From IMG/VR virus record IMGVR_UViG_3300037070_001380, positions 1 through 35,056 of that record: a stretch of DNA of 35,056 bases. One strand, 5' to 3'. Of this stretch, positions 7,005-34,670 are shown piece by piece; the stretch's first letter is position 1, and each line of letters begins with the position of its first letter. Made by a program: the position numbers and the translations under genes. This DNA is from a virus. The notes under the pieces were generated by a model. The model made no database searches, was not told the origin of the DNA, and saw only the letters and a list, made by a program, of their open reading frames with translations.

Positions 7005-7178
7005 ATGGATGTGCCTACGGGAGTTCTCACCACCGTGACTGAGCGGGTCGTCGTCCTGGCTGACGACTACGCTGATCGTCTTGTGTCTTCTCTCTCCTCG
7101 GCTGCCTCAGAGCAGGAGCTTCGGGACGGGATCTCTGGTGCGTTCATCTCCTTCCTCGCTGAAGTGCTGACGGGATGA
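7005..7178 (+). CDS. Small hypothetical helical protein, 57 aa
   Basis: Open from ATG 7005 to TGA 7176-7178, with the following gene starting inside the stop (ATGA). The sequence (VTERVVVLADDYADRLVSSL, then SEQELRDGISGAFISFLAEV) is amphipathic and helical. A better-supported start may be GTG 7035, which has GGGAG at 7019-7023, about 11 bases upstream, and would give 47 residues. No family recognised. Confidence 0.5.
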   Translation: MDVPTGVLTTVTERVVVLADDYADRLVSSLSSAASEQELRDGISGAFISFLAEVLTG

Positions 7179-7543
7179 GCGACGGCTGGTACCAACGTCG
7201 AGTTGCTCGCGCACGGCAGACCCCTGCGCCCCAGCAGCAACAGCAGTACCCGCAGCAGAGGCAGGCGTACTACCCGCAGCAACAGCAGCGTCCCCCGCCT
7301 GGCTACATCCCGCAGCAGCCGGTGCCGACCACCATCGGCAACCTGTGGGAGCAGATGCAGCAGTGGCATGGCGGCAAGGCGCACCAGGTCGATCCTCACC
7401 CCTGCCCGGAGTGCGGCAGCGACCAGTACTTCTCCCGCACCGGAGCCGAGGCCCGTCGTGGGCCTCCTCCCGCACCGCACTGCTTCGCCTGTGGGTACAA
7501 CGGGATGTTCGATCAGGGTCTGGCATCCACTTGGAATGCATGA
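7175..7543 (+). CDS. Gln/Pro-rich protein with C-terminal zinc ribbon
   Basis: 122 residues. Residues 16-50 are a Gln/Pro/Tyr-rich low-complexity tract, probably disordered. Residues 74-110 form a four-Cys zinc ribbon, C77-x2-C80 and C103-x2-C106 (HPCPECGSDQYFSRTG, then CFACGYNG). Similar ribbon proteins sit near replication genes in actinophages, but their role is not established. It is the last gene before the separate recA promoter region. Confidence 0.7.
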   Translation: MSDGWYQRRVARARQTPAPQQQQQYPQQRQAYYPQQQQRPPPGYIPQQPVPTTIGNLWEQMQQWHGGKAHQVDPHPCPECGSDQYFSRTGAEARRGPPPAPHCFACGYNGMFDQGLASTWNA

Positions 7544-7568
7544 TCTGGAACTGTGGTATCGTGCCACG

Positions 7569-7600
7569 TTGTAGTCACTTCAAAGATCCGGTATCTTTGA
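7569..7600 (+). promoter_or_regulatory. Promoter overlapped by a palindromic operator, upstream of recA
   Basis: TTGTAG (7569-7574), a 17-base spacer and TATCTT (7592-7597) make a plausible promoter. An 8-bp perfect inverted repeat, TCAAAGAT (7580-7587) and ATCTTTGA (7593-7600) around a 5-base centre, covers the spacer and the -10 element, the place a repressor would bind. Transcription would start near 7604, leaving a leader of about 60 bases before the recA-like gene. Confidence 0.5.
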
Positions 7601-7610
7601 CGACGGTAGT

Positions 7611-7648
7611 TACTCCGGGAGGGTCTAGGCGGAAGTCCTCCCGGAGTA
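7611..7648 (+). promoter_or_regulatory. Stable leader hairpin upstream of recA-like gene
   Basis: TACTCCGGGAGG (7611-7622) pairs perfectly with CCTCCCGGAGTA (7637-7648): 12 bp with a 14-base loop. No T-run follows, so it is not a classic terminator. It ends 4 bases before the ribosome site AAGGGAG (7653-7659) of GTG 7664, so it may stabilise the mRNA or influence initiation. Confidence 0.6.
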
Positions 7649-7663
7649 GCCCAAGGGAGTGCC

Positions 7664-8725
7664 GTGCCTGACGTTGACGCCCTGATCGCACAGATCAACA
7701 AGGAGATGAAATCGGAGGTGCTGGTCTACGCCAGCAGCTTGCCCTCCTTCCAACGGGTCACCACCGGCTCCCTCTCCTTCGATCTGGCTCTCGGTGGTGG
7801 CTGGCCGCTCAACTGTTGGAACGAGATCGTCGGCCTGGAGTCCAACGGCAAGACTGTGCTGGCCCTGAAGACCATCGCCGCCAACATGCGTGACGACCCC
7901 GAGTACAAGTGCCTGTGGGTCGCCAGCGAGGACTTCAACACTGCATGGGCCGAGCAGCTTGGCGTCGACCTGTCTCGCACTGTGCTGGCTCAGACCAACG
8001 TGATGGAAGAGGCGTACGAGATCATGCTCACCGCCCTCGACAGCCAGTCGGTGGACGCTGTCGTCCTCGACTCCTACCCCGCTCTGATACCCACGTCAGA
8101 GGGTGAGGGCGACATGGACACCTGGGTTGTCGGCCTCGGTGCTCGCCTCACCAACAAGCTGATGCGTAAGTCACCACCAGCCCAGCGTCGCAAGGAGGGT
8201 GAGCGCAACTGCCTGGCGCTGATCATCAACCAGTGGCGTGACCGCATTGGGGTGATGTTCGGTGACCCCCGCACGACACCGGGTGGCAAGGGCAAGAACT
8301 TCAGCTACTTCACTCGGGTGGACGTGGCCCGTGACGGGTGGATCGAACATGAGAAGGTCAAGGTCGGCCTCAACATCAAGATCCTGACGATGAAGAACAA
8401 GACGGCACCGCCGATGCGTACTGGTGTCACACCGTTCTACTTCACCGAGTGTGCGCCCTGGGTCAAGGGTGACTACGACATCGTCAGCCAGTTGTTCAAC
8501 ATCGGCTTGACCTACGACCTGATCGAGCGCAAGGGTGCGTGGTATCACTACAACGGAGAGCGTTGGAACGGAAGAGATGCCGCCATCCAATCATTGGGGG
8601 AAGACTTGGACCTTCGTGCCCAGGTCGATCAAGAGGTGCGGCGGCTGCTGCTAGGGGTTTCCGCCACCTCGGTGCAGCAGCCGTCGCCCACCAAGAAGCA
8701 GCGCACAGTGAGGAAAAAGTCATGA
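7664..8725 (+). CDS. recA: RecA-like recombinase
   Basis: 353 residues; ATP-dependent strand-exchange recombinase of the RecA family. Walker A GLESNGKT (57-64; E. coli RecA has GPESSGKT), Walker B VDAVVLDSYPAL (Asp about 136), and an L2-type region NQWRDRIGVMFGDPRTTPGG that closely follows the RecA pattern NQ-R-x2-IGVMFGxPxTTxGG. The C-terminus is basic (PTKKQRTVRKKS). It starts with GTG 7664 behind AAGGGAG, and is probably expressed from its own promoter. It likely works with the nucleases and RuvC-like resolvase encoded just downstream in recombination-dependent replication. Confidence 0.9.
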   Translation: MPDVDALIAQINKEMKSEVLVYASSLPSFQRVTTGSLSFDLALGGGWPLNCWNEIVGLESNGKTVLALKTIAANMRDDPEYKCLWVASEDFNTAWAEQLGVDLSRTVLAQTNVMEEAYEIMLTALDSQSVDAVVLDSYPALIPTSEGEGDMDTWVVGLGARLTNKLMRKSPPAQRRKEGERNCLALIINQWRDRIGVMFGDPRTTPGGKGKNFSYFTRVDVARDGWIEHEKVKVGLNIKILTMKNKTAPPMRTGVTPFYFTECAPWVKGDYDIVSQLFNIGLTYDLIERKGAWYHYNGERWNGRDAAIQSLGEDLDLRAQVDQEVRRLLLGVSATSVQQPSPTKKQRTVRKKS

Positions 8726-12982: not shown

Positions 12983-14407
12983 GTGAGCTACGGAGGGATC
13001 TACCGGGCCAAGGCCATCAAGCTCACGGGTAGTGCGCTGACGGCCTACGTCCCCCAGGTGTTCGGGGACACGCAGATACTCATCGAGAACTTCGTCGGCA
13101 CCGCTCCATCCACCGACACCATGGGATGGGTCGCCTTCCATGGTGGCAGCCCCGAGTTCCCGGTGTGGATCGCAGCCGGGGTGGACGCCGGGTCAGTCAC
13201 GTCACAGATCGCTGCGGCGGTCGACGCTGCCCCCTACGTCAAGCGCACGGGCGACCTAATGACCGGGATCCTCCAGTCGAACCGCACGGGAGCAGCCAAC
13301 TTCGACGGTGCCGTCCACGTCGAGATCCTCTCCAACGGCACGCAGATCGGGCGGATCACCCGAGCTACCTCGACCACGGCGGGCTTCGTCACCTCGTCCG
13401 ACGCTGATCTGAAGGAGAACTTCACCGCTATTGATGACTCCTTGGCGATGCAGTGGATGACGACGATCACCCCCTGGTTCTTCAACTACAAGGACAAGCC
13501 TGACGTGCGCCACGTCGGCTACAACGCCCAAGAAGTTGCCGCCCAGTGGCCCAACGGTGTGTCCAACGGCATCATCGTGCCCGGTCACGGCGATGTCAAC
13601 GCCCGCACCTGGGATGAGAACGGTCAGGAGACGACGCCGAGGGAGGTGTGGGAGTCGTGGATGATGGACCACTCCAAGATCACCCCCATCCTCCACGCCT
13701 GCCTGTTGACCATGGATCGCAAGGTCAACAACCGGTTCGCCATGAACACTGCTCGCATCGCAGCGTTGGAACAGGTAGTGGCGACGCAGGCGGGTCAGAT
13801 CACGGCGCTGCAACAACTGGCGGCGGATCACACCACCCAGATCAACGCCCTCTTGCAGACCACGGCGCAGCAGTCCACCATGATCACGGCTCTGCAACAG
13901 ACCGACGCCACGCACACGTCGCAGATCGCCGCCAACACTGCGGGCATCACCAAGAACACGACCGACATCACCAAGAACACCGCTGACATCGCCGCCAACA
14001 AGGCAGCCATCACCAGCAACAGCCAGGGTGTCGGCACCCTGCGTACCGACGTCTTCAACACCCGCCGCTTCGTTGCCTACTGGCAGTTCTCCAACACCGT
14101 CACCGCTCCTCCTGGTGCAGGGCAGATGCGTACCAGCACCGACAACCTGACGATGTGGTTGCACAAGGTCGACACCGAGGGCTACGACCGGGCCGCTCAG
14201 TTCACCATGCTCACCGCTGGGGTTCAGATCGCCATCCGTAGTACCAACGGCAGGACCGTCAACTTCCGCAGCACTGCTGCGCCCATCGACAGTGGCACCT
14301 ACTACACCATCCCGGTGGCCATCGTCTCGGGGACGAATGACTTCAAGGGTGTCCGGGTCGAGGTCACCATCCGCACTGGCATCTGGGCCACCGACACACC
14401 ACCGTGA
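12983..14407 (+). CDS. Tail fibre/baseplate protein with central S74 chaperone domain
   Basis: 474 residues. In order: an N-terminal OB-like baseplate region (residues 1-65: AYVPQVFGDTQILI, GWVAFHGGSPEFPVW); a tail-fibre repeat (RTGDLMTGIL, 89-97); a peptidase S74 / intramolecular chaperone domain (about 136-245: TSSDADLKENF, VRHVGYNAQEVA); a long heptad-like region (255-350, repeats of ITALQQ, ITKNTTDITKNTADIAANK); and a beta-rich C-terminal domain. S74 domains trimerise fibres and normally sit at the extreme C-terminus, often cleaving themselves off; here 230 residues follow. Starts at GTG 12983, weak ribosome site. Confidence 0.85.
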   Translation: MSYGGIYRAKAIKLTGSALTAYVPQVFGDTQILIENFVGTAPSTDTMGWVAFHGGSPEFPVWIAAGVDAGSVTSQIAAAVDAAPYVKRTGDLMTGILQSNRTGAANFDGAVHVEILSNGTQIGRITRATSTTAGFVTSSDADLKENFTAIDDSLAMQWMTTITPWFFNYKDKPDVRHVGYNAQEVAAQWPNGVSNGIIVPGHGDVNARTWDENGQETTPREVWESWMMDHSKITPILHACLLTMDRKVNNRFAMNTARIAALEQVVATQAGQITALQQLAADHTTQINALLQTTAQQSTMITALQQTDATHTSQIAANTAGITKNTTDITKNTADIAANKAAITSNSQGVGTLRTDVFNTRRFVAYWQFSNTVTAPPGAGQMRTSTDNLTMWLHKVDTEGYDRAAQFTMLTAGVQIAIRSTNGRTVNFRSTAAPIDSGTYYTIPVAIVSGTNDFKGVRVEVTIRTGIWATDTPP

Positions 14408-20391: not shown

Positions 20392-22223
20392 CCGTCACCT
20401 ACGACTGGCGTACCGACACGACGACCGTTACGGCGATTGACAGCGTCGACCTCATCTATGACGTAACGGGCGACTTCTCAGTCATCACGACGATGGTGCA
20501 AGCGCCTTCTGCTGGTGGGTCGGCAGGGATCAAGGTGACGGATGGGTCCGTCAACCTGCTCTTCTCTGTTGGTCCGCTTGCTGGTGACAACATCATCTCT
20601 GTGCCGGTCGGGGTCAATTTCCTTGTCTTGCAGTGGACTAGTGGTACCTACACGCCGTTCACCTCCAGCGATGGGGTCGTATGGCATCCGTTGGTGAACC
20701 CCAAGGTCGATGTTGATGGCAACCCGTTGCCGTTCCCAGAGTTCCCGACCACGCCGACGCAAGCTGGGCTATTCTTCCAAACCGATCCCTCGACCACCGT
20801 GGAAGAGACGGCGGTCTATGGCTCCCCACGGGTGCTCCCTGGCACGATCCTGGCGCAACTTGATGATCCCGACCATCTTGCTGATTGGATCATCTACCCC
20901 GAGACAGAGACGCTGGCGCCCATCGGGCTGGTTCCACCTAAACCACCTGATCCTGTGACATCTTCAGCAGAGGCCACGGTCCATGCTTTCGTTGGCGCTC
21001 CCTTTGGTGATCTGGAGTTCGACGTGGGCAAGAGCGTCGGCTGGCTCAATCGGTTCGTGGATGACCTCTTCGTCACCGATGTCAATGCAGGCACCCAGCG
21101 TTACTGGGTGGTCAACTGGACGGCGTCGTTCCATGACACCTACTACAAGTTCTCGGGGAAGAGCTTCTTCCTCGACCCGGTGGCCTACCGCAAGGGTCAG
21201 GTTCAAGATGCGCTCGACTACTCCCACCGTCACCCTGAACAACTGGTGTACGACGACAACGACTGGGTGATCTTCCTCGACGCCCACGAAGGACTGTCGA
21301 CCGACACCCGCTCCAAGCCCGACGACTACCTCATCTCCACATATCAGTCGTTCATCTATCGGGAGATCGCTAGGGCTAACGACTCGGGCCTGGATCGAGT
21401 CGTCCTGCCCTTCTACGTCTTCTTGCGCCACGACCACATCCAGAACGTCAGCCAGACCTACACCGATCTCGATGATCGGTTGTTCGTGGTGACGCAGTCG
21501 GCTGGTGTGCCGTACTACTTGCCAAACCTGGGTATGACCAGGATGTTCCGGGTATCGGTGCTCAGGGATCCTGACTTCGACTGGTCGATCATCGATACCC
21601 CGGTCGCCATCCCCGACACCACCGTCAAGATCCAATTGGTGAGCTACGCCTACGCCCATTGGAGCCTCCAAGACATCCCGCCCAAACAGGCGCGGGTGCC
21701 ACCGTTGTCTCCTGGCAACGACGATGGCTGGTTGCAGCGCTGTCTGATCTCCCAGGTGGTACCGATCACCGGCCTGCCCTTTGGTGACCCGTACAACCCC
21801 ATCACCACCTGGGTTCACCCCGTCGAGGATGTGGCTGGGTTCCGTGGTCCCTGGTGTTTCGACACCTACGCTGAACTTGTCGATGGTGCTGAGATACCGT
21901 ACCCACCGCCGCCCATCGACCCAGAGGTGGCGGGGCTGATGACCCCGATGTACGACCTCGTCTTCCGCATCAACGTGCGTGATGGCGTGTGGTACGCCGG
22001 TAACGGCGTCGGCAACACTCAGTTGATCTGGAGCGACGATCTCCAAGAGTTCATCGCCTACGGCCAGCCGATCCCGGAGCCGATCCAGTTCACCGAGAAT
22101 CCTCCAGGCAGCGGCCTGTATGAGGCTGACCCGGCACTGGTCGGCGCCAATGGGCTGTACGAGATTCCTACTGGCATCATCGAGGATCCACTCGGCAGCG
22201 GACTGTACGACCCACGCCCATGA
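20388..22223 (+). CDS. Beta-sandwich plus glycosyltransferase-like protein, 611 aa
   Basis: GTG 20388 overlaps the upstream stop. Residues 1-170 are strand-rich and resemble a LamG/concanavalin-like fold (VDLIYDVTGDFSVITTMVQA, QAGLFFQTDPSTTVEETAVY). Residues 205-430 resemble a GT-A glycosyltransferase: helix, then DNDWVIFLDAHEGLSTD with D298-x-H300-E301 where GT2 enzymes have D-x-D/E, then SFIYREIARANDSGLDRVVL. The C-terminus carries repeats (NPPGSGLYEADP, GANGLYEIP, DPLGSGLYDPRP). It may decorate or bind host glycans, or modify phage particles. The upstream 60 bases of this frame lie in the previous gene. Domain calls are from pattern only. Confidence 0.6.
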   Translation: MTVTYDWRTDTTTVTAIDSVDLIYDVTGDFSVITTMVQAPSAGGSAGIKVTDGSVNLLFSVGPLAGDNIISVPVGVNFLVLQWTSGTYTPFTSSDGVVWHPLVNPKVDVDGNPLPFPEFPTTPTQAGLFFQTDPSTTVEETAVYGSPRVLPGTILAQLDDPDHLADWIIYPETETLAPIGLVPPKPPDPVTSSAEATVHAFVGAPFGDLEFDVGKSVGWLNRFVDDLFVTDVNAGTQRYWVVNWTASFHDTYYKFSGKSFFLDPVAYRKGQVQDALDYSHRHPEQLVYDDNDWVIFLDAHEGLSTDTRSKPDDYLISTYQSFIYREIARANDSGLDRVVLPFYVFLRHDHIQNVSQTYTDLDDRLFVVTQSAGVPYYLPNLGMTRMFRVSVLRDPDFDWSIIDTPVAIPDTTVKIQLVSYAYAHWSLQDIPPKQARVPPLSPGNDDGWLQRCLISQVVPITGLPFGDPYNPITTWVHPVEDVAGFRGPWCFDTYAELVDGAEIPYPPPPIDPEVAGLMTPMYDLVFRINVRDGVWYAGNGVGNTQLIWSDDLQEFIAYGQPIPEPIQFTENPPGSGLYEADPALVGANGLYEIPTGIIEDPLGSGLYDPRP

Positions 22224-24852: not shown

Positions 24853-26214
24853 GTGCAGATCTACTTCGCCGGGGCTGAAGTCCCCAGTCACCTTGGCCTG
24901 CTGCGTGAGTGCGGCGTCGAACGTGTTGCTGTCAACATCGCCAACCTTGCTCGCCAGTCGATCACCCTCTCCAAGTGGGCCACCAAGGCGCGCCTCGAAG
25001 GTATGGAGTGGGTGCTCTATGCCGACAGTCCCAACGTCCCTGCTGACCCGGTGTTGGAACTGCTCCAGAACTGTGAAGTGCAGCCCGAGATCATCACCGG
25101 CCCAGTGTCTTGGTACGAGACGACGTGGTTGGCGAATAGCGATCTGTTGTTCCTACCAACGTGGGACGCCACCGACCCCACGATCCTGCGTGACTACACG
25201 CAGAACTATGACGGAGTGACGCTCCCCGATGCGGTGGTCGACAACCCCACCGCTGTCCGTCAAGCTCGGGCTTCGATCCCACGGCTCGGGCAACTCGCCG
25301 CCTTAACCGGTCGAACCAAGGGGTTGGAGCGTTTCGACACGCTCGTATCGAGCGCCTGGTGGGCGGTGCAGAAGTACGGCGAAACCCAGGTATGGGCTGG
25401 TAACAGAATGGTCCGTCTAAACAGCGACGACAAGCTGCTGAAGCGGGAGAAATACGCTCCCGCCATCGAGGCGTTGGGCTGCTCTCCGCAATTGATGCTG
25501 GAGGACGATCCCAACGAATCGGTGCGCTGCGCCGTCCTGTCGTGGATGGCCCTGGAACGTCATCTGGTGCGTGGCGGCGCCTCGCAGCATCTGTCTGAAG
25601 TTGCTATTCCAGATTCTGTGATCCCCTCGAACGTTGTCCCCATCGCTCCCGGAGTTGCTAGACCAGCCCCCCGACCCCGGCACCATCTGCTCCCTGTGAT
25701 GACCACCGCGAGCGCTCCCGTGACCACCACTGACGCCGATGGCAACGAGGTCGAGGAACTGCATCCGATCATCTCAGTGACCCCGGAGAGCCTGCGCCAG
25801 TGCAACACATGCTCCCTCGCTGTGGCCTGTCCCAGCTTCTCCCCCGGTGCAGTCTGTAGCTACTCGATCCCCGTCGAGATCAAGTCGAAGACGCAGTTGG
25901 TCGCCGTGATGCGCTCGGTGACCGAGATCCAGGCCCAGCGGATCTTCATGGGCCGCTTCGCAGAGGAGATCCAGGGCGAGCACAACCCGGACTTGTCCAA
26001 GGAGATGGACCGCTTCTTCTCCATGTTGGAGCGCTGGCGCAATATCGAGGACAACCGGGACACCGTCAAGCTCTCGTTGGAGACGAAAGGTAGCGGTGGG
26101 CCAGCGATGGGCGTGCTCTCTCGTCTCTTTGGAACAAGGGTGGGCCAGAACGCCACGCTTCTGGACAACTCTGTGGACAGCAACGACATCATCGACCAGA
26201 TGACCGATGACTAG
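24853..26214 (+). CDS. Two-domain phage protein with Cys cluster, 453 aa
   Basis: GTG 24853 directly after the upstream TAA. The N-terminal half (MQIYFAGAEVPSHLGLLREC, MEWVLYADSPNVPADPVLEL, LVSSAWWAVQKYGETQVWAG) recalls TIM-barrel-like phage proteins of the tRNA-guanine transglycosylase/DpdA kind, but I cannot confirm this. A flexible region (265-300) leads to a Cys cluster C317-x2-C320-x5-C326-x8-C335 (CNTCSLAVACPSF), then a helical, acidic domain (MDRFFSMLERWRNIEDNRDT). The Cys set could hold zinc or an Fe-S cluster. No queuosine-type synthesis genes are in the window. Confidence 0.6.
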   Translation: MQIYFAGAEVPSHLGLLRECGVERVAVNIANLARQSITLSKWATKARLEGMEWVLYADSPNVPADPVLELLQNCEVQPEIITGPVSWYETTWLANSDLLFLPTWDATDPTILRDYTQNYDGVTLPDAVVDNPTAVRQARASIPRLGQLAALTGRTKGLERFDTLVSSAWWAVQKYGETQVWAGNRMVRLNSDDKLLKREKYAPAIEALGCSPQLMLEDDPNESVRCAVLSWMALERHLVRGGASQHLSEVAIPDSVIPSNVVPIAPGVARPAPRPRHHLLPVMTTASAPVTTTDADGNEVEELHPIISVTPESLRQCNTCSLAVACPSFSPGAVCSYSIPVEIKSKTQLVAVMRSVTEIQAQRIFMGRFAEEIQGEHNPDLSKEMDRFFSMLERWRNIEDNRDTVKLSLETKGSGGPAMGVLSRLFGTRVGQNATLLDNSVDSNDIIDQMTDD

Positions 26215-28128: not shown

Positions 28129-28395
28129 ATGGCTAGCTCCCCGCCTGACCGGGGCAACGACCCCAAGCGCAAGCCACAGCCCCTGAACTTCGTGCGTGGC
28201 GGCGGTATCTGCGACCCGAACGAGAAGGGTGGGCACGTCATGAAGGGCAGCAACCAGGCGGCTGTGTGCATGCCCACCGCTGGTACTGACACCCGTCCTC
28301 GTTGGCGCCAAGCAGGCAAGATCGGCGGGCCTTCCCGGCACAGCACCCACCACCAGCAGCACCGCAAGGGAGGGAAGCCCTATGGCAAAGCGTGA
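28129..28395 (+). CDS. Basic Gly/His-rich hypothetical protein, 88 aa
   Basis: ATG 28129; the open frame continues far upstream but only through the minus genes. Basic and polar (PPDRGNDPKRKPQPLNFVRG, THHQQHRKGGKPYGKA), with two Cys and a His (GICDPNEKGGH, AAVCMPT) that might bind metal. Probably disordered. First gene of the plus operon 28129-31813; overlaps the next gene by 14 bases. Confidence 0.6.
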   Translation: MASSPPDRGNDPKRKPQPLNFVRGGGICDPNEKGGHVMKGSNQAAVCMPTAGTDTRPRWRQAGKIGGPSRHSTHHQQHRKGGKPYGKA

Positions 28396-28696
28396 GGAAG
28401 CGCAGCCTGAGGAACAGCCCGAACCCCGCACCCCGATGCGCTCAGAGGGCATGAGCAAGGCGCCCAACCAGTGGGAGGAAGGCAACCGCAGGATCAAGGC
28501 GGCGAACCTCGCTGACTTCTTGCGAAAGCGTGGTATCACCGACGTGGGCCTCCAGACGATGCACCCGCAGATCCTCCAGCACCACATCCGTTCGGCGGGC
28601 CTGAAGTCACCACCATCGGAGGCAACCATGAAGTTGGTCGCCCAGCACCTGAAGCCATCCAGGCGTCAGCCCACCGATCCCTTCGCAGGTTTGTGA
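28382..28696 (+). CDS. Hypothetical protein, 104 aa
   Basis: ATG 28382, with GGGAGGG about 5 bases upstream inside the previous gene. Disordered N-terminus (EEAQPEEQPEPRTPMRSEGM), then a helical domain of about 60 residues (KAANLADFLRKRGITDVGLQ, MHPQILQHHIRSAGLKSP, MKLVAQHLKPSRRQ) that resembles a small DNA-binding helical bundle, without a named family. TGATG overlap with the next gene. Confidence 0.6.
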   Translation: MAKREEAQPEEQPEPRTPMRSEGMSKAPNQWEEGNRRIKAANLADFLRKRGITDVGLQTMHPQILQHHIRSAGLKSPPSEATMKLVAQHLKPSRRQPTDPFAGL

Positions 28697-29757
28697 TGAG
28701 CACCACAGACAGGAAGAGGGCATTCCAGAACTTGGTGAGGGCTGCCACCATGCCCGGTCGTTACAAGAACGACGAGGGTAAGGAAGTCATCCACACGCTG
28801 AAGCCCGAAGCCATGCCAGCCGCTCCCACTGGGCCGGAACACCCCAACATGCCATCGAGGGGCGACTATCTCCTTCCAGCGGCGTCAACGAAGCAAACCT
28901 TCGCTGCTCTGGTCGATGCCCCGGTCCTCAACCATGCGACCCGTGAGATCACCATGGGCAAGAAGATGCAGGGCTACGTCGACCCTGAGCACTACATCGC
29001 TGGCACCAAGAACTACCCCGGTGCGAACGAGATGACCGGGACCGACCGAGGGTTAAGCGAGCGGGCCGTCGCCCAACACCTCGGTCAGCCGACACCGGCC
29101 TACGGCGGCAGCACCGATGCACGTACTGACCCTTCGGGCGGTCACCGGTCCACTGAGGCCGTGTGGACCGGCAAGGAAGAGGACGTGACCAGCCCTGCTG
29201 GTGCGACCAAGTCGTACCTCAACAACAAGGGCGAGACGATGCAACGGAAGGTCCGCAGCGCTGGCCTCTTCGCCCGCTTGATGGGTGGTGAGAAGATCCT
29301 CAACCCGGCCCACCACATCATCGATCCGTCGCCGCCCAAGTACGGGCCTCGGGTGTTGACCAATACGGAACTCGACCCCCAGACGGGCAAGCCGACGAAG
29401 GTCAGTGCTGATGACGCTGGTGGCTTCGGCCATGACCAGCCGGTGCAGTGGGAAGGACACCACCGGATGATGGCGTCGGCGCTGAAGCAGAAGGCCCAGC
29501 GGGAAGCGGGGGTGAAGGATTGGGCTGTCCCTGTGCCCGTCGACATTCACTTTGGAACCGATACGGCGCTATCGAACAAGTCGTTCATCGACCTCAGTGA
29601 GGGCATCGTGGAGCAGCAGAGCAGGCGCAAGTCAGCACTGCGAGGGATGTTGAGCGGAACGCGTGGTGGCGGTCCCGATCCCAACAACCCCAAGCCACCT
29701 CGGCGTGTGCTCGGCAGCCGCATGGCACCAGGCACTTGGAACAGCAAGGCGTACTGA
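28696..29757 (+). CDS. Protein with ParB/Srx-like GHHR motif, 353 aa
   Basis: ATG 28696. The first 80 residues are polar; the middle has MQGYVDPEHYIAGTKNYPGA. Residues 253-257 (EGHHR, in VQWEGHHRMMASALKQ) match the nucleotide-binding or catalytic motif of ParB/sulfiredoxin-fold proteins (D/E-G-x-H-R-x2-A-x2), followed by VPVPVDIHF. Two further genes downstream (30220, 31038) carry the same motif and are closer to each other. Function unknown: ParB/Srx folds include CTP-dependent clamps, nucleases and kinases. The C-terminus is basic and Gly/Pro-rich. Confidence 0.6.
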   Translation: MSTTDRKRAFQNLVRAATMPGRYKNDEGKEVIHTLKPEAMPAAPTGPEHPNMPSRGDYLLPAASTKQTFAALVDAPVLNHATREITMGKKMQGYVDPEHYIAGTKNYPGANEMTGTDRGLSERAVAQHLGQPTPAYGGSTDARTDPSGGHRSTEAVWTGKEEDVTSPAGATKSYLNNKGETMQRKVRSAGLFARLMGGEKILNPAHHIIDPSPPKYGPRVLTNTELDPQTGKPTKVSADDAGGFGHDQPVQWEGHHRMMASALKQKAQREAGVKDWAVPVPVDIHFGTDTALSNKSFIDLSEGIVEQQSRRKSALRGMLSGTRGGGPDPNNPKPPRRVLGSRMAPGTWNSKAY

Positions 29758-29758
29758 C

Positions 29759-30031
29759 ATGGATGATTGGAAGCCCTCGTACCTCGGGGAGCCTCGGCCA
29801 GTTCCACCCAAGCAGCACCCGCACCCCGACAGGGCCAACGACCCTGCTCGCTCCGTCACCCGTGCGGCGCACAGTGCTCGGGGAGGGGCACCGGGCCTCA
29901 TCACCCAGCAGGCGAATGAGATGCGTGCTCGGCAACCGGACTACGGCGAGGGGTTGAGCGTGAGCACCGGGAAGCTGGCTGCGTTGCGTCGTCCTGGTGA
30001 GCGCGGCATGAACCTCGGGATGTTCATGTAA
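29759..30031 (+). CDS. Hypothetical protein, 90 aa
   Basis: ATG 29759, one base after the upstream stop. Pro/Arg-rich start (WKPSYLGEPRPVPPKQHPHP) and a helical end (LITQQANEMRARQPDYGEGL, KLAALRRPGERGMNLGMFM). No family recognised. TAATG overlap with the next gene. Located between two ParB-like genes, so a shared module is possible. Confidence 0.6.
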   Translation: MDDWKPSYLGEPRPVPPKQHPHPDRANDPARSVTRAAHSARGGAPGLITQQANEMRARQPDYGEGLSVSTGKLAALRRPGERGMNLGMFM

Positions 30032-30216
30032 TGGCGCGAGGACAGAGGACAGAGCACGACCCGAAGCGCAAGGTGACCCGCGACCTGCTCGGCTACCTGC
30101 GTCCAGGTATGGACCCCGACGAGGCGGCTATTGCTCCGAAACGGCCACAGCGGCTAGTGACACCGGACTACATCAGGGACACCAGGGCGCTCTTGGAACA
30201 CGAACGGATGGACTGA
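30031..30216 (+). CDS. Small basic protein, 61 aa
   Basis: ATG 30031 shares the A of the upstream TAA. Arg/Lys-rich (ARGQRTEHDPKRKVTRDLLG, PKRPQRLVTPDYIRDTRALL), probably a short helical protein. No family recognised. The next gene follows after 3 bases. Confidence 0.6.
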   Translation: MARGQRTEHDPKRKVTRDLLGYLRPGMDPDEAAIAPKRPQRLVTPDYIRDTRALLEHERMD

Positions 30217-30219
30217 GCC

Positions 30220-31038
30220 ATGGGTGCCTGGCACTACCTCAACACCGATCAGGTCGATGTTGGGGAGCACCCCGACCTCCCGCAGTTGCGTCGGCCCACG
30301 ATGTATGCGCGGCTGCACTCAGATCCACAGCAGACCCAAGAGACACCAGCTTCGGAGGCGAAGCCGGTGCATTTCACCAGCGAACGGGCATGGGACAAGT
30401 TTGCTCTCAACCCAGTCATCAATGGGCAACAGATGCGGACCCTGATCGACCCTGTCGAGCACCAGGAGCACGTCACCCACAGCGTCGATGTGCAGGGATA
30501 CGGCTCTATGGATCGCATGTGGAGCGAGAAGGAGGAAGAGGCTCGGGAGCACCAGACCACTGGGGTCCATGGCGCAGGTATCTACGACTGGATGGAGCGG
30601 GGGGATCGGCAGCGCTCTCCCATCACGTTGCGGGTCGATCCCGGCCAGGAGGGTTACGGCCAGGGCGAGGGGCACCACCGTGTCGCCGCCGCCGCTGCGC
30701 TCCAACGGGAGTCGGGTGAGGTTCGTCCGCTGAAGTTCAAGGCAGAACATGTGGGCTACCTGGGCGGCTCCAAGGGCTGGGACGAAACGCCCTCGACGGA
30801 TGACGAACCGACGCGCTGGCGAGGCGAAGATGAGCCGTCGCCAACCCCATCGTCACAGCGAGAGACGCCTCGCATGATGACGCCCGCCAACCAGCCGAAG
30901 CTGGGGGCGAGAACATCTCGGCTCGCCTCGTTCACCTTCGATCCTGCCCACGACAAGGCGCTCAGAGCGGCGCTTGGAACCGGAAAGGTGAAGAACGAGC
31001 GGTGGGCCAGGCGTAAGCGCGAGCGAGGGGAAGCCTGA
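30220..31038 (+). CDS. ParB/Srx-like GHHR protein, paralog A, 272 aa
   Basis: ATG 30220. Begins GAWHYLNTDQ, nearly the same as the next gene (AAWHHLNTDQ). Residues 73-165 align by eye with it: LIDPVEHQEHVTHSVDVQGY, GSMDRMWSEKEEEA, GIYDWMERG, SPITLRVDPG, and E150-G-H152-H153-R154 (GEGHHRVAAAAALQ). About 60 extra residues separate the N-terminal tag from the shared core, and a disordered basic C-terminus ends NERWARRKRERGEA. A ParB-fold activity is plausible; substrate unknown. Confidence 0.65.
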   Translation: MGAWHYLNTDQVDVGEHPDLPQLRRPTMYARLHSDPQQTQETPASEAKPVHFTSERAWDKFALNPVINGQQMRTLIDPVEHQEHVTHSVDVQGYGSMDRMWSEKEEEAREHQTTGVHGAGIYDWMERGDRQRSPITLRVDPGQEGYGQGEGHHRVAAAAALQRESGEVRPLKFKAEHVGYLGGSKGWDETPSTDDEPTRWRGEDEPSPTPSSQRETPRMMTPANQPKLGARTSRLASFTFDPAHDKALRAALGTGKVKNERWARRKRERGEA

Positions 31039-31478
31039 TGGCTGCGTGGCACCATCTCAACACTGACCAGACCGGGATCTACGTCGACCCCGTCGAGCAC
31101 GTCGCCAACCTCCAGCACTCGACCGATGCCCGGGTAGAGCACTACGGCGACATGGACCAGATGTGGGAGAGCAAAGAGCACGCCGCAGCCCTTCCAGCAG
31201 GTCACGGCCACGGCTCGGGCATCCTCGACTCACTGATGGCGGGCGAGCCGATACGCAAGCCGATCACCATGGTCTACGACCTCGATGCTCAACCAGGCGA
31301 CCGCTCGTTCCGCACCAGCCCCAAGCAGATCGACGGCCACCACCGTGTGGCAGCAGCGGCAATCGCCCAGGCGAAGCTTGGAAGGCAAATCCGGGTACCT
31401 GTCGACTACCTGCACCCGTCCGACTACCCGTTCACGTCGTCGGAAGAGTGGGCGCAGGGCAGTGAATCCGACTGGTAA
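31038..31478 (+). CDS. ParB/Srx-like GHHR protein, paralog B, 146 aa
   Basis: ATG 31038 shares a base with the upstream TGA (TGATG). A compact version of the same family: AAWHHLNTDQTGIYVDPVEH, HYGDMDQMWESKEHAAA, GSGILDSLMAGEPIRKPITM, then D99-G-H-H102-R103 (IDGHHRVAAAAIAQ) and RVPVDYLHPSDYPF. It probably represents the minimal domain. Tandem duplication with insertion or deletion of the N-terminal spacer explains the pair. Confidence 0.7.
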   Translation: MAAWHHLNTDQTGIYVDPVEHVANLQHSTDARVEHYGDMDQMWESKEHAAALPAGHGHGSGILDSLMAGEPIRKPITMVYDLDAQPGDRSFRTSPKQIDGHHRVAAAAIAQAKLGRQIRVPVDYLHPSDYPFTSSEEWAQGSESDW

Positions 31479-31496
31479 CGATACGGAGGTATCACA

Positions 31497-31700
31497 ATGT
31501 TAGGAATGATCGCTGAGATCATGGACAGCCCGGACTTTGCCGAGATCATGTTCTTGGTGGCGTTCATCCTGTTCGTCATCGAGTTCGTCATCCGCATCAT
31601 GCGCCCGGCCAACTGGGTCTACGAGTCGGTGCTGATGGTCGCCGGGTTCGCCTGTGTGGCCCTCGGCCTCCTGGCGCTACCCACCGCCGTCAGCCCATGA
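31497..31700 (+). CDS. Small two-TM membrane protein, 67 aa
   Basis: ATG 31497 behind GGAGG (31485-31489), in a start sequence GAGGTATCACAATG that also precedes the 14424 gene. TM1 about 17-35 (EIMFLVAFILFVIEFVIRIM), TM2 about 43-63 (SVLMVAGFACVALGLLALP). The next gene starts inside its stop (ATGA). Function unknown. Confidence 0.7.
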   Translation: MLGMIAEIMDSPDFAEIMFLVAFILFVIEFVIRIMRPANWVYESVLMVAGFACVALGLLALPTAVSP

Positions 31701-32606: not shown

Positions 32607-34670
32607 TCAGGCGAGAGCAATCAGAATGTCACGCAACCTCTCGGGAATCTCCATGAGGTTGGTGATGCCGAATGCTTCGGGGCACCCGTACTCGACCAGG
32701 TTCTCGGCGTACCGCTTGGCGGTCAGTTCGTGCTTGGCGAACCCGAACCCGACCATCAACCGGTCTTCGGTGTGGTAGGCGAGCGTGGCCCTGTCGGCCT
32801 GTGCTCGCATGCGCCCACCGCCCCAGCCGTTAGCGCTCTTGCTCCACTGACCCTGCCACTCACCATCGGTCATGATGAGCACGACGTGGTTGACCTTGTC
32901 GAACCGCTGGTTCTCCAGGTCGGCCAGCCCCGGCGTCGGGTCGGTGGCTCCCGCCGTTTGCACGGCGATCATGCCATCGGCCTGTTCGGTTGCGTCGTAG
33001 AGCACCGTTGCGTCGGTGTCCCACAGTGTGACCGTGCAGGGGATGCCCAGCCGCTGGCAGGCCAGCTTGACTGCGTAGGCGGTCTGGCTGAGTTCCTTGG
33101 TGTAGCCGCTCATGCTGGACGAGTAGTCCAACATCAGCGACACGGCCATGTTGAATCCCGGCTGGTGGTCCTCGACCCAGTCCCGGTAGAAGTTCGTCTC
33201 CCCCGGCTGGCGAGTCTCGTAGCGAGCGACGTTGATGATGCCTCGACGCTGGTTCTCAACCCATGCGGGCTGACGATCCATCGTTGCCGCTTGGAAGGAC
33301 CGCTCAATTTCAGCGGCCAGCCCTTCGGCCTCGATGGCAGCTTCGGCGTCCTCGCTGAAACCACCGATGTAGGGGGACAGGTCCGAAGTCCTGTCCTCCA
33401 TGGCGTTGTGATACGCCTCTACGTCGCCATCCAACGCCGGGTCGGCATCGCGCTCGGCCTCGGCCTCGGCCTTGGCTTCATCGATGTCTTCCTGGGTCAG
33501 CTTGTCCTCCTTCGGAGGAATCGGCTTGGAGTGGTCACCAGCTTCGGGCGTGCCCTCGGCCTCGCTCTCGGAGTCGCCCTGGCCGTCACCGGCCTCGCCA
33601 TCGCTCTCGTCCTCGACATCGTCGGCCGGTACCGGAGTACCGCCCGTGTCGATGATGGGAGCCTCGTCCTCTTCCTCTTCTTCCTCGGCTTCGAAGTCGG
33701 GGAGGATGGGGATTGGCGTCGGCTCCTGCGGAGGCGTGATGTCGTTGCCCTCTTCGTCTCGGATGACTTTGCGCTTGCGACCCTGGTGGGCATGACCGAA
33801 GTCGTCCAGCTTGATGTTGGCGAGTTCGAGCAGCCCGTGCATCTCGACCACCGCCGTCACCATCGTGACCGCGTCGGTCGCACGAACGTAGCTGTCGACC
33901 ACCGCTTCGAACCGCTGGGCCAGAGCCTCACCGTAGATCGCCACGAAGTCGCGGCGTGCGCTCGCCCGCAGTTTGCGGGGAAGGTAGCGGCGCCAGATCA
34001 GCAGCGGCCAGTTCGCCACTGCGTGTTCGGGCGTCTCCATCAGTTCGGTCATCATCATCGGCGTGAGGTACTTCGCCTTGACCGGCGAGTCGCTGACGAC
34101 GGCCGTTTCCATGCGCTGGTCTTCCAGGGCGTTCCACGGTCGGTGGTATCTCGTCCAGAGGATGCGGGGCTGGTTGCCATCGTCGTCCAGCGGCGGGAGC
34201 AGTCCGGGGATCAGGTGCTCCTTGCCAGCGACCATTTCCTGAAGCTCAGTGAAGGGGTCCGACCAACGGCAGTGACCACCTTCGTGGTACATCAGGCCGC
34301 GCAGCGTGGCGGCGAGCAGGCGCTTGTCTTCGTGCTCCCGGTAGCGGATGTGGATGCGGCTGAAGTCAGTCCAGGCGACCATCTTGTGGCCCGGTGCCAC
34401 GTCGAGGCGCACGTTGACGCTCTCGGAGGCGAGCACGGCGCCGATGTTCTTGACCATGCCTCGCTGGACAGCGACAGCCTCGGGCTGGAGTCGGCTCTCG
34501 TTCGAGCGCTGACGGTCAGCGTTGCGGCGGGCCTCGTTGGCTAGGCGCTCGCCTAGGACGGCCTGTTCGCGAGCGATGCGTTGACGCTCGCGTTGCAGGA
34601 TGGTGCGGCCCTCCTCGCTGAGAGCCTGTCGGCGCTTGCGCCGCTCAGGAATGGTGATCGGTTCGTTCAT
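32607..34670 (-). CDS. VWA-domain protein with HExxH motif, CobT-like layout
   Basis: 687 residues. N-terminal Arg-rich helices (1-60); an HExxH zinc-protease-like motif H129-E-G-G-H133 (LMYHEGGHCRWSDPF); a helical middle; a long acidic, Pro-rich linker (about 310-420) with a run of Glu; then a VWA domain from about 505 with a complete MIDAS (D515-x-S517-x-S519, T579, D602 in LIMTDGEW). This is the architecture of cobaltochelatase CobT-like and MoxR-associated VWA proteins, which work with an AAA+ ATPase partner not present in this window. In phages these pairs may remodel protein complexes. ATG at 34670, weak GGAG close upstream. Confidence 0.8.
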   Translation of the reverse strand: MNEPITIPERRKRRQALSEEGRTILQRERQRIAREQAVLGERLANEARRNADRQRSNESRLQPEAVAVQRGMVKNIGAVLASESVNVRLDVAPGHKMVAWTDFSRIHIRYREHEDKRLLAATLRGLMYHEGGHCRWSDPFTELQEMVAGKEHLIPGLLPPLDDDGNQPRILWTRYHRPWNALEDQRMETAVVSDSPVKAKYLTPMMMTELMETPEHAVANWPLLIWRRYLPRKLRASARRDFVAIYGEALAQRFEAVVDSYVRATDAVTMVTAVVEMHGLLELANIKLDDFGHAHQGRKRKVIRDEEGNDITPPQEPTPIPILPDFEAEEEEEEDEAPIIDTGGTPVPADDVEDESDGEAGDGQGDSESEAEGTPEAGDHSKPIPPKEDKLTQEDIDEAKAEAEAERDADPALDGDVEAYHNAMEDRTSDLSPYIGGFSEDAEAAIEAEGLAAEIERSFQAATMDRQPAWVENQRRGIINVARYETRQPGETNFYRDWVEDHQPGFNMAVSLMLDYSSSMSGYTKELSQTAYAVKLACQRLGIPCTVTLWDTDATVLYDATEQADGMIAVQTAGATDPTPGLADLENQRFDKVNHVVLIMTDGEWQGQWSKSANGWGGGRMRAQADRATLAYHTEDRLMVGFGFAKHELTAKRYAENLVEYGCPEAFGITNLMEIPERLRDILIALA

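Follow-up and report, generated by a model that had tools for sequence, protein, structure and literature searches.

The DNA analysed here is a 35 kb virus record from an uncultured phage (IMGVR_UViG_3300037070_001380; hereafter the window, also called G000), and our subject is a cluster of three plus-strand genes in it whose products, A, B and C, are each assigned a domain of the ParB/sulfiredoxin (ParB/Srx) fold. A six-frame translation of the whole window contains just three copies of the motif [DEN]GHHR, whose positions 29452, 30667 and 31332 are precisely those given by an earlier sequence-only reading; 200 dinucleotide-preserving shuffles contain it 0.15 times on average and twice at most. 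Protein A (28696..29757, plus strand; 353 residues counted from its ATG) is predicted, by homology and a structure model, to consist of a ParB/Srx-fold domain with long insertions. Its box II, or P-motif, EGHHRM lies at 29452..29469 (plus strand), and comparison with paralogues in the relative phage G001 marks a C-terminal peptide, PGTWNSKAY, at 29728..29754 (plus strand). Protein B (30220..31038, plus strand; 272 residues) comprises an N-terminal tag, MGAWHYLNTDQ (30220..30252, plus strand), a linker of about 55 residues, a ParB/Srx domain delimited by family alignment A2 (30400..30762, plus strand) with box II EGHHRV at 30667..30684 (plus strand), and a tail of about 90 residues. In protein C (31038..31478, plus strand; 146 residues), the tag MAAWHHLNTDQ (31038..31070, plus strand; compare MATWHHLNEQLF in the related contig L150) directly abuts a single ParB/Srx domain, assigned from its model by Foldseek, VIA and BFVD comparisons, whose box II DGHHRV lies at 31332..31349 (plus strand). 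All three box II positions come from the six-frame scan. One ParB/Srx domain is recognised in each protein, and multi-domain fusions occur in relatives only. B and C are 45% identical over the domain (E = 3.6e-17), and their alignment bears out the shared N-terminal tag that had been read from the sequence, together with DPVEH, MD.MW, HG.GI and GHHRVAAAA. Because some 55 residues part tag and domain in B, the tag is separable from the domain.

With a Pfam scan giving no match for A, B or C, and a PHROG scan giving nothing useful either, the ParB/Srx motif that the sequence-only reading took as established was at first a mere assumption; it is upheld by the models of C and A and by profile-profile comparison. 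The AlphaFold2 (AF2) model of C (predicted local distance difference test, pLDDT, 82; predicted template modelling score, pTM, 0.78) places sulfiredoxin, KorB, Noc and ParB on top in Foldseek against the PDB (E 0.06-0.45), returns exclusively ParB/Srx/SerK/SbnI/PadC-type rows in VIA (Z up to 6.1), and has 'ParB/Sulfiredoxin' as its best BFVD match (E=2.2e-6). The AF2 model of A is weaker (pLDDT 69); all 16 of its VIA rows are ParB/Srx-type (Z 4.0-5.9), and Foldseek returned only noise for this lower-confidence model. These Z values are middling, and the weight of the model comparisons lies in the absence of unrelated folds from both VIA lists. HHalign, which compares hidden Markov models, ties the family with a probability of 94.6% to a phage group that also matches ParB PHROGs and one member of which, L123:7770-8369, matches PF02195 at 5.8e-5; the relation of A, B and C to PF02195 is indirect, running through this partner group and not through a direct Pfam match. 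When the sequences of the PDB were searched with family profiles A2 and A4 (hmmsearch), no ParB/Srx match emerged. We accordingly assign the ParB/Srx fold to C and A by model and to B by sequence homology. The Gly and Arg of GHHR, which form the GxxR phosphate motif of box II, are invariant in 8/8 family members, and the retention of this phosphate-binding motif makes it probable that A, B and C bind a nucleoside triphosphate (NTP).

The only close relative of the window phage found among 2.9 million IMG/VR contigs is G001 (IMGVR_UViG_3300037071_001703, 44 kb; locus L001), which carries five tandem ParB/Srx paralogues flanked by neighbours like those of the window cluster. Protein A shares 35% identity over 97 residues with one of them, L001:6446-7177 (E = 1.3e-9), and groups with the L001 6617/7177 pair in the tree (support 89/88). 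All three window proteins do bear GHHR, as had been claimed, but A is more than a carrier of the motif: it is homologous across the full domain, and A, B and C, homologous over the whole of it, are paralogues. The orthologue of C is L001:8001-8522, the sister pairing being supported at 100/99 in one tree and at 94/96 with the tag cut off; this gives no support to a recent tandem duplication of B and C and implies that B branched off before the two phages diverged. B itself is unplaced in the tree, and a position beside the pair formed by C and L001:8001 is not rejected (approximately unbiased test, p = 0.24). From the placement of both C and A among the G001 copies, the copies appear to be old. 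The tag of B equals that of L001:8001 at the protein level (31/33 nucleotides alike) despite bodies that are only 43% identical, a pattern that fits a module that was exchanged, or one conserved apart from its domain. At the other end of these proteins, PGTWNSKAY of A recurs unchanged in L001:7177-8001 and is resembled by EWTSGEY in L001:8001-8522; this C-terminal peptide is kept on ParB paralogues despite weakly similar bodies.

Scanning viral contigs for [DE]GHHR[hydrophobic]AA yielded at least 120 loci. The family profile recognises many small single-domain ParB/Srx genes, with 2-4 per contig in several contigs; the window holds 3 copies, G001 holds 5 and another contig, G003, several. All-against-all clustering showed that the ParB/Srx genes are interleaved with further recurring small genes, and we refer to these tandem assemblies, which can be long and include genes for predicted host-modifying enzymes, as arrays. 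Their GNAT genes match PF13673 and PF00583 at about 1e-3 in Pfam, and a group marked by YHGT has rifampin ADP-ribosyltransferases (ART) as its sole PDB profile matches (E 0.11). Another group carries an hRG...HWT...ExE pattern typical of ART (alignment A6), as judged by motif resemblance and by a match to part of gp88 of mycobacteriophage I3; it had no sequence match in the PDB. A staphylococcal-nuclease-like gene without the tag (L012:3545-3961; PF00565, 1.2e-13) lies within one array.

Array genes start alike, for example with MSNLSPKQF, MAASDHLGPQW, MSAENLSSQQW or MANNLSSNQF. The pattern L[SNG][PSRKQED].?Q[FW] is found at 62 gene N-termini in 18/27 loci, where it is 33-fold denser than in protein interiors, and 119 class-permuted control tags reached a mean of 0.5 and a maximum of 8 gene starts; the expression was built from the data in which it is counted, a circularity guarded against by the permuted controls and by the enrichment at N-termini. 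A looser pattern captures 82 open reading frames (ORFs) in 23 contigs, the bodies of which, minus the tag, fall into 29 BLAST clusters. In these relatives, then, a short tag is common to unrelated protein bodies. Codon differences at identical residues fall at position 3 in 99 cases, at position 1 in 38 and at position 2 in 5, which indicates that the constraint acts on the protein. A version of the element also occurs at the C-terminus, in three large L150 paralogues ending KGLSxQFLPGMEGFV and in some L082 proteins. The L150 proteins belong to a tandem set of 275-285 residue paralogues (L150:3612-6129 and 7150-8001), a further member of which ends STQF...QPKLPGLEDY. The tag of B and C is a divergent one, reading LNTDQ without the F/W. 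Intermediate forms are found in L150, where ParB/Srx genes start MATWHHLNEQLF and MAAKNHLNPKQLKLF and a GNAT-like gene, so identified by motif, starts MAKKHLNLNQF, and in G001, where copies start MSAQHINPNQL (L001:8522) and MSAADHLQPAQ. On the strength of these intermediates, the window tag is probably the same element as the array tag.

In several relatives the arrays adjoin genes for virion assembly or lysis. PHROG matches confirm terminase and portal in L148, L143 and G003 and terminase in G001. In L109 tagged genes are found between the terminase and portal genes, in L148 next to terminase and in L143 next to portal; the G003 array and its lysin precede both genes and share their strand. 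This mix of ParB, ART and GNAT domains among virion genes is seen in several relatives and is not evident around the window cluster. In two cultured mycobacteriophages the array domains are fused, in both cases just upstream of the portal gene: I3 gp88 joins an ART-like domain (E 1.4e-5 at Z=10,000) to ParB (1.2e-9), and Blubba gp73 joins ParB (3.9e-11) to the array GNAT (BLAST 2.8e-10). The two genes (L152:11320-13047 and L153:11890-13404) occupy an equivalent place with differing cassettes, as if exchanged. The body of a tagged L018/L109 protein matches gp205 of Rhodococcus phage E3 (42% over 187 residues, E 3e-36), which carries the GenBank database annotation 'structural protein', as well as a 'large polyvalent protein' of a Planktothrix phage. 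Iyer et al. (2017) predicted that DdrB-like ParB domains and solo mycobacteriophage GNATs are deployed from the virion (PMC5512222). The head of phage P1 contains DdrB, and the N-terminal 30 residues of the P1 protein DarB are enough to direct packaging (PMC9024508).

Taken together, these observations suggest, short of proof, that the array proteins travel as cargo inside the virus particle. The reading we favour, to which as a whole chain we give a probability of about 0.5, is that the arrays encode an unfused polyvalent arsenal that is packaged and injected, with the ParB/Srx proteins as NTP-dependent, DNA-acting modules. Array genes would be expressed together with virion genes, the tag would steer each protein into the particle during assembly, and the tagged proteins would enter the host along with the injected DNA, where the ParB/Srx members may bind or nick host or phage DNA under NTP control. 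The window phage is best read as holding a reduced version limited to ParB/Srx, in which two of the three copies bear a divergent tag, and its own proteins might, more tentatively, also be packaged.

Several points weigh against this interpretation. The loci were picked by GHHR and also supplied the data in which the tag was discovered, which makes the tag counts conditional. Protein A has no N-terminal tag, and the tag of B and C is joined to the array tag through homologues only, those of G001 and L150; when a tag profile was trained without the window and G001, B and C fell outside the ten best of the 1,119 start codons of the window. The G001 ParB cluster lies 23 kb from the terminase gene, flanked by a VWA gene and a gene resembling tRNA-guanine transglycosylase (TGT) rather than by head genes. 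A tblastn search of 50,697 phage records with A, B, C and several relatives returned zero matches, and a search of 84,980 genomes of bacteria and archaea likewise found none of the three proteins, so that neither a host nor a cultured phage carrying them came to light. As to the nucleotide, ParB/Srx proteins can bind CTP, ATP or GTP, or show no detectable binding, and their specificity is unpredictable (PMC12704722).

Phage ParB/Srx proteins that stand alone are already known, as are polyvalent proteins. Searches of the literature, with most subscription journals outside their coverage, found neither a tandem multiplication of ParB/Srx nor a tag common to unrelated domains, and nothing relevant on a shared N-terminal tag in small phage proteins. 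With somewhat less confidence than we place in the chain above, and short of even odds, we propose a general form of it: a group of uncultured phages may load small unfused effectors (ParB/Srx, ART-like, GNAT and others) into their capsids by means of one short terminal address tag, which would amount to a cargo-loading peptide, mixing and multiplying them as cassettes, with the fused polyvalent proteins of cultured phages as the covalent counterpart and the window trio as a reduced form. If so, there would be a second route for delivering many activities at once, with each carried on its own tagged protein and not all on a single giant polyvalent chain. Were the tag a packaging signal, a dozen N-terminal residues would be enough to mark an unknown small phage gene as coding for an injected effector, and the injected arsenal of phages could be read directly from sequence. 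Since the fused form exists in cultured relatives that infect Mycobacterium smegmatis, the idea is partly testable in a laboratory host.

Around A, B and C, the window encodes a small basic protein upstream of the cluster (28132..28395, plus strand; 79% identical in G001), a 104-residue ORF before A (28382..28696, plus strand), two ORFs of 90 and 61 residues between A and B (29760..30031 and 30031..30216, both plus strand), and a small predicted membrane protein directly downstream of C (31497..31700, plus strand; 70% in G001). BLAST found no match in G001 for the ORFs at 28382, 29760 and 30031. The multi-component system suspected by the sequence-only reading therefore survives as an arrangement seen in relatives and not in its proposed partners, the small basic neighbours in the window; the likely co-components are the interleaved small GNAT- and ART-like genes with similar tags in other phages. 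A VWA-like protein on the minus strand (32607..34670) flanks the cluster, with homologues near the arrays of G001, G002 and G003. Further upstream, 24853-26214 encodes a queuine tRNA-ribosyltransferase-like protein (phrog_887, E=1.1e-19) that is 69% identical in G001, and G003 has a full-length phrog_887 match (29939-31444, E=2.8e-59) 500 bp from its tagged ParB/Srx gene at 28991-29443; such genes near ParB/Srx possibly point to DNA 7-deazaguanine modification. Elsewhere, a Peptidase_S74 (endosialidase chaperone) domain lies midway in a predicted tail protein (12983-14407; Pfam, 4.5e-7), and G001 encodes a Ku-like DNA end-binding protein (phrog_4873, E=3e-15; L141:2154-2945, G001 21154-21948).

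These surroundings bear on other accounts of the cluster. The three proteins could be phage partition or transcription factors, acting like ParB, KorB and Noc as CTP-gated DNA clamps on the phage's own genome, since the fold and the conserved GxxR are alike and KorB, Noc and ParB are among the closest structural matches. We consider this unlikely: C is little more than one domain of 146 residues, without the helix-turn-helix (HTH) and dimerisation domains of those proteins, scans of regions of the window with family libraries turned up no ParA-like gene, and several diverged copies per genome suit one partition complex poorly. The phrog_887-like genes raise the prospect that A, B and C are accessory ATPases of DNA base modification, similar to DpdB or DndB and partnering the TGT-like protein at 24853-26214. 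Its conservation in G001 and the short distance between the two genes in G003 speak for such a partnership, but the window protein matches phrog_887 over residues 295-436 only and the array ParB copies adjoin GNAT- and ART-like genes, not phrog_887 genes, which leaves this account a slender chance. Slimmer still are the prospects that the three serve a MoxR-VWA chaperone system, whose genes lie beside the cluster, as its substrates or adaptors. Beyond the VWA genes near the window cluster and the arrays, G001 and G003 do have a MoxR/CobS-like ATPase (phrog_249); however, the window VWA gene is on the opposite strand and hence shares no operon with the cluster, the pair is absent from most array contigs examined, which are fragments, and MoxR-VWA pairs are common in phages.

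The tag, too, could have another function, as a docking motif for a partner other than the capsid, for instance the host sliding clamp through a QLxLF-like peptide, or for self-assembly of array proteins. The tags of several ParB-type copies include NQFKLF, TQLKLF or PNQLSLF, which resemble clamp-binding peptides, and the tag is sometimes C-terminal. The LF end is nevertheless missing from most non-ParB tags (NLSPKQFHTLYRGL, NLSPVQFKDY), so QLxLF is not the common element and the clamp ranks low, and in the AF2 model of C the LF position forms the first strand of the domain. We regard a docking role as improbable and retain packaging and injection as the preferred reading.

Among known systems, sulfiredoxin heads the VIA fold comparison (6ky4, Z 6.1 with C and 5.9 with A) and is likewise a small single domain, but identity is 11-16% and a role in peroxiredoxin repair is unsupported. 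With the N-terminal CTPase domain of ParB, KorB and Noc (PF02195), A, B and C share the fold, an SI...G..PI.V box I region and the GxxR of box II; they differ in lacking a Pfam match, the HTH and the C-terminal dimer domain, and GHHR replaces GERR. The array tag recalls the N-terminal capsid targeting sequences of T4 and P1, short peptides that send proteins into the head, and the packaged P1 proteins are part of the Dar system, one component of which is DdrB, a protein with a ParB domain (PMC9024508). It differs from these sequences in its residues, in that it can be C-terminal, and in that its packaging role is putative. The nearest counterparts are the phage polyvalent proteins with DdrB-like ParB domains, such as I3 gp88 and Blubba gp73, which likewise combine ParB/Srx with ART and GNAT and are encoded next to virion genes; stand-alone forms of ParB and GNAT have already been noted there and predicted to be packaged (PMC5512222). 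Unlike the polyvalent proteins, the array phages encode each domain in a small gene of its own within a tandem array, multiply ParB/Srx, and, in relatives of the window phage, furnish unrelated domains with one N-terminal tag.

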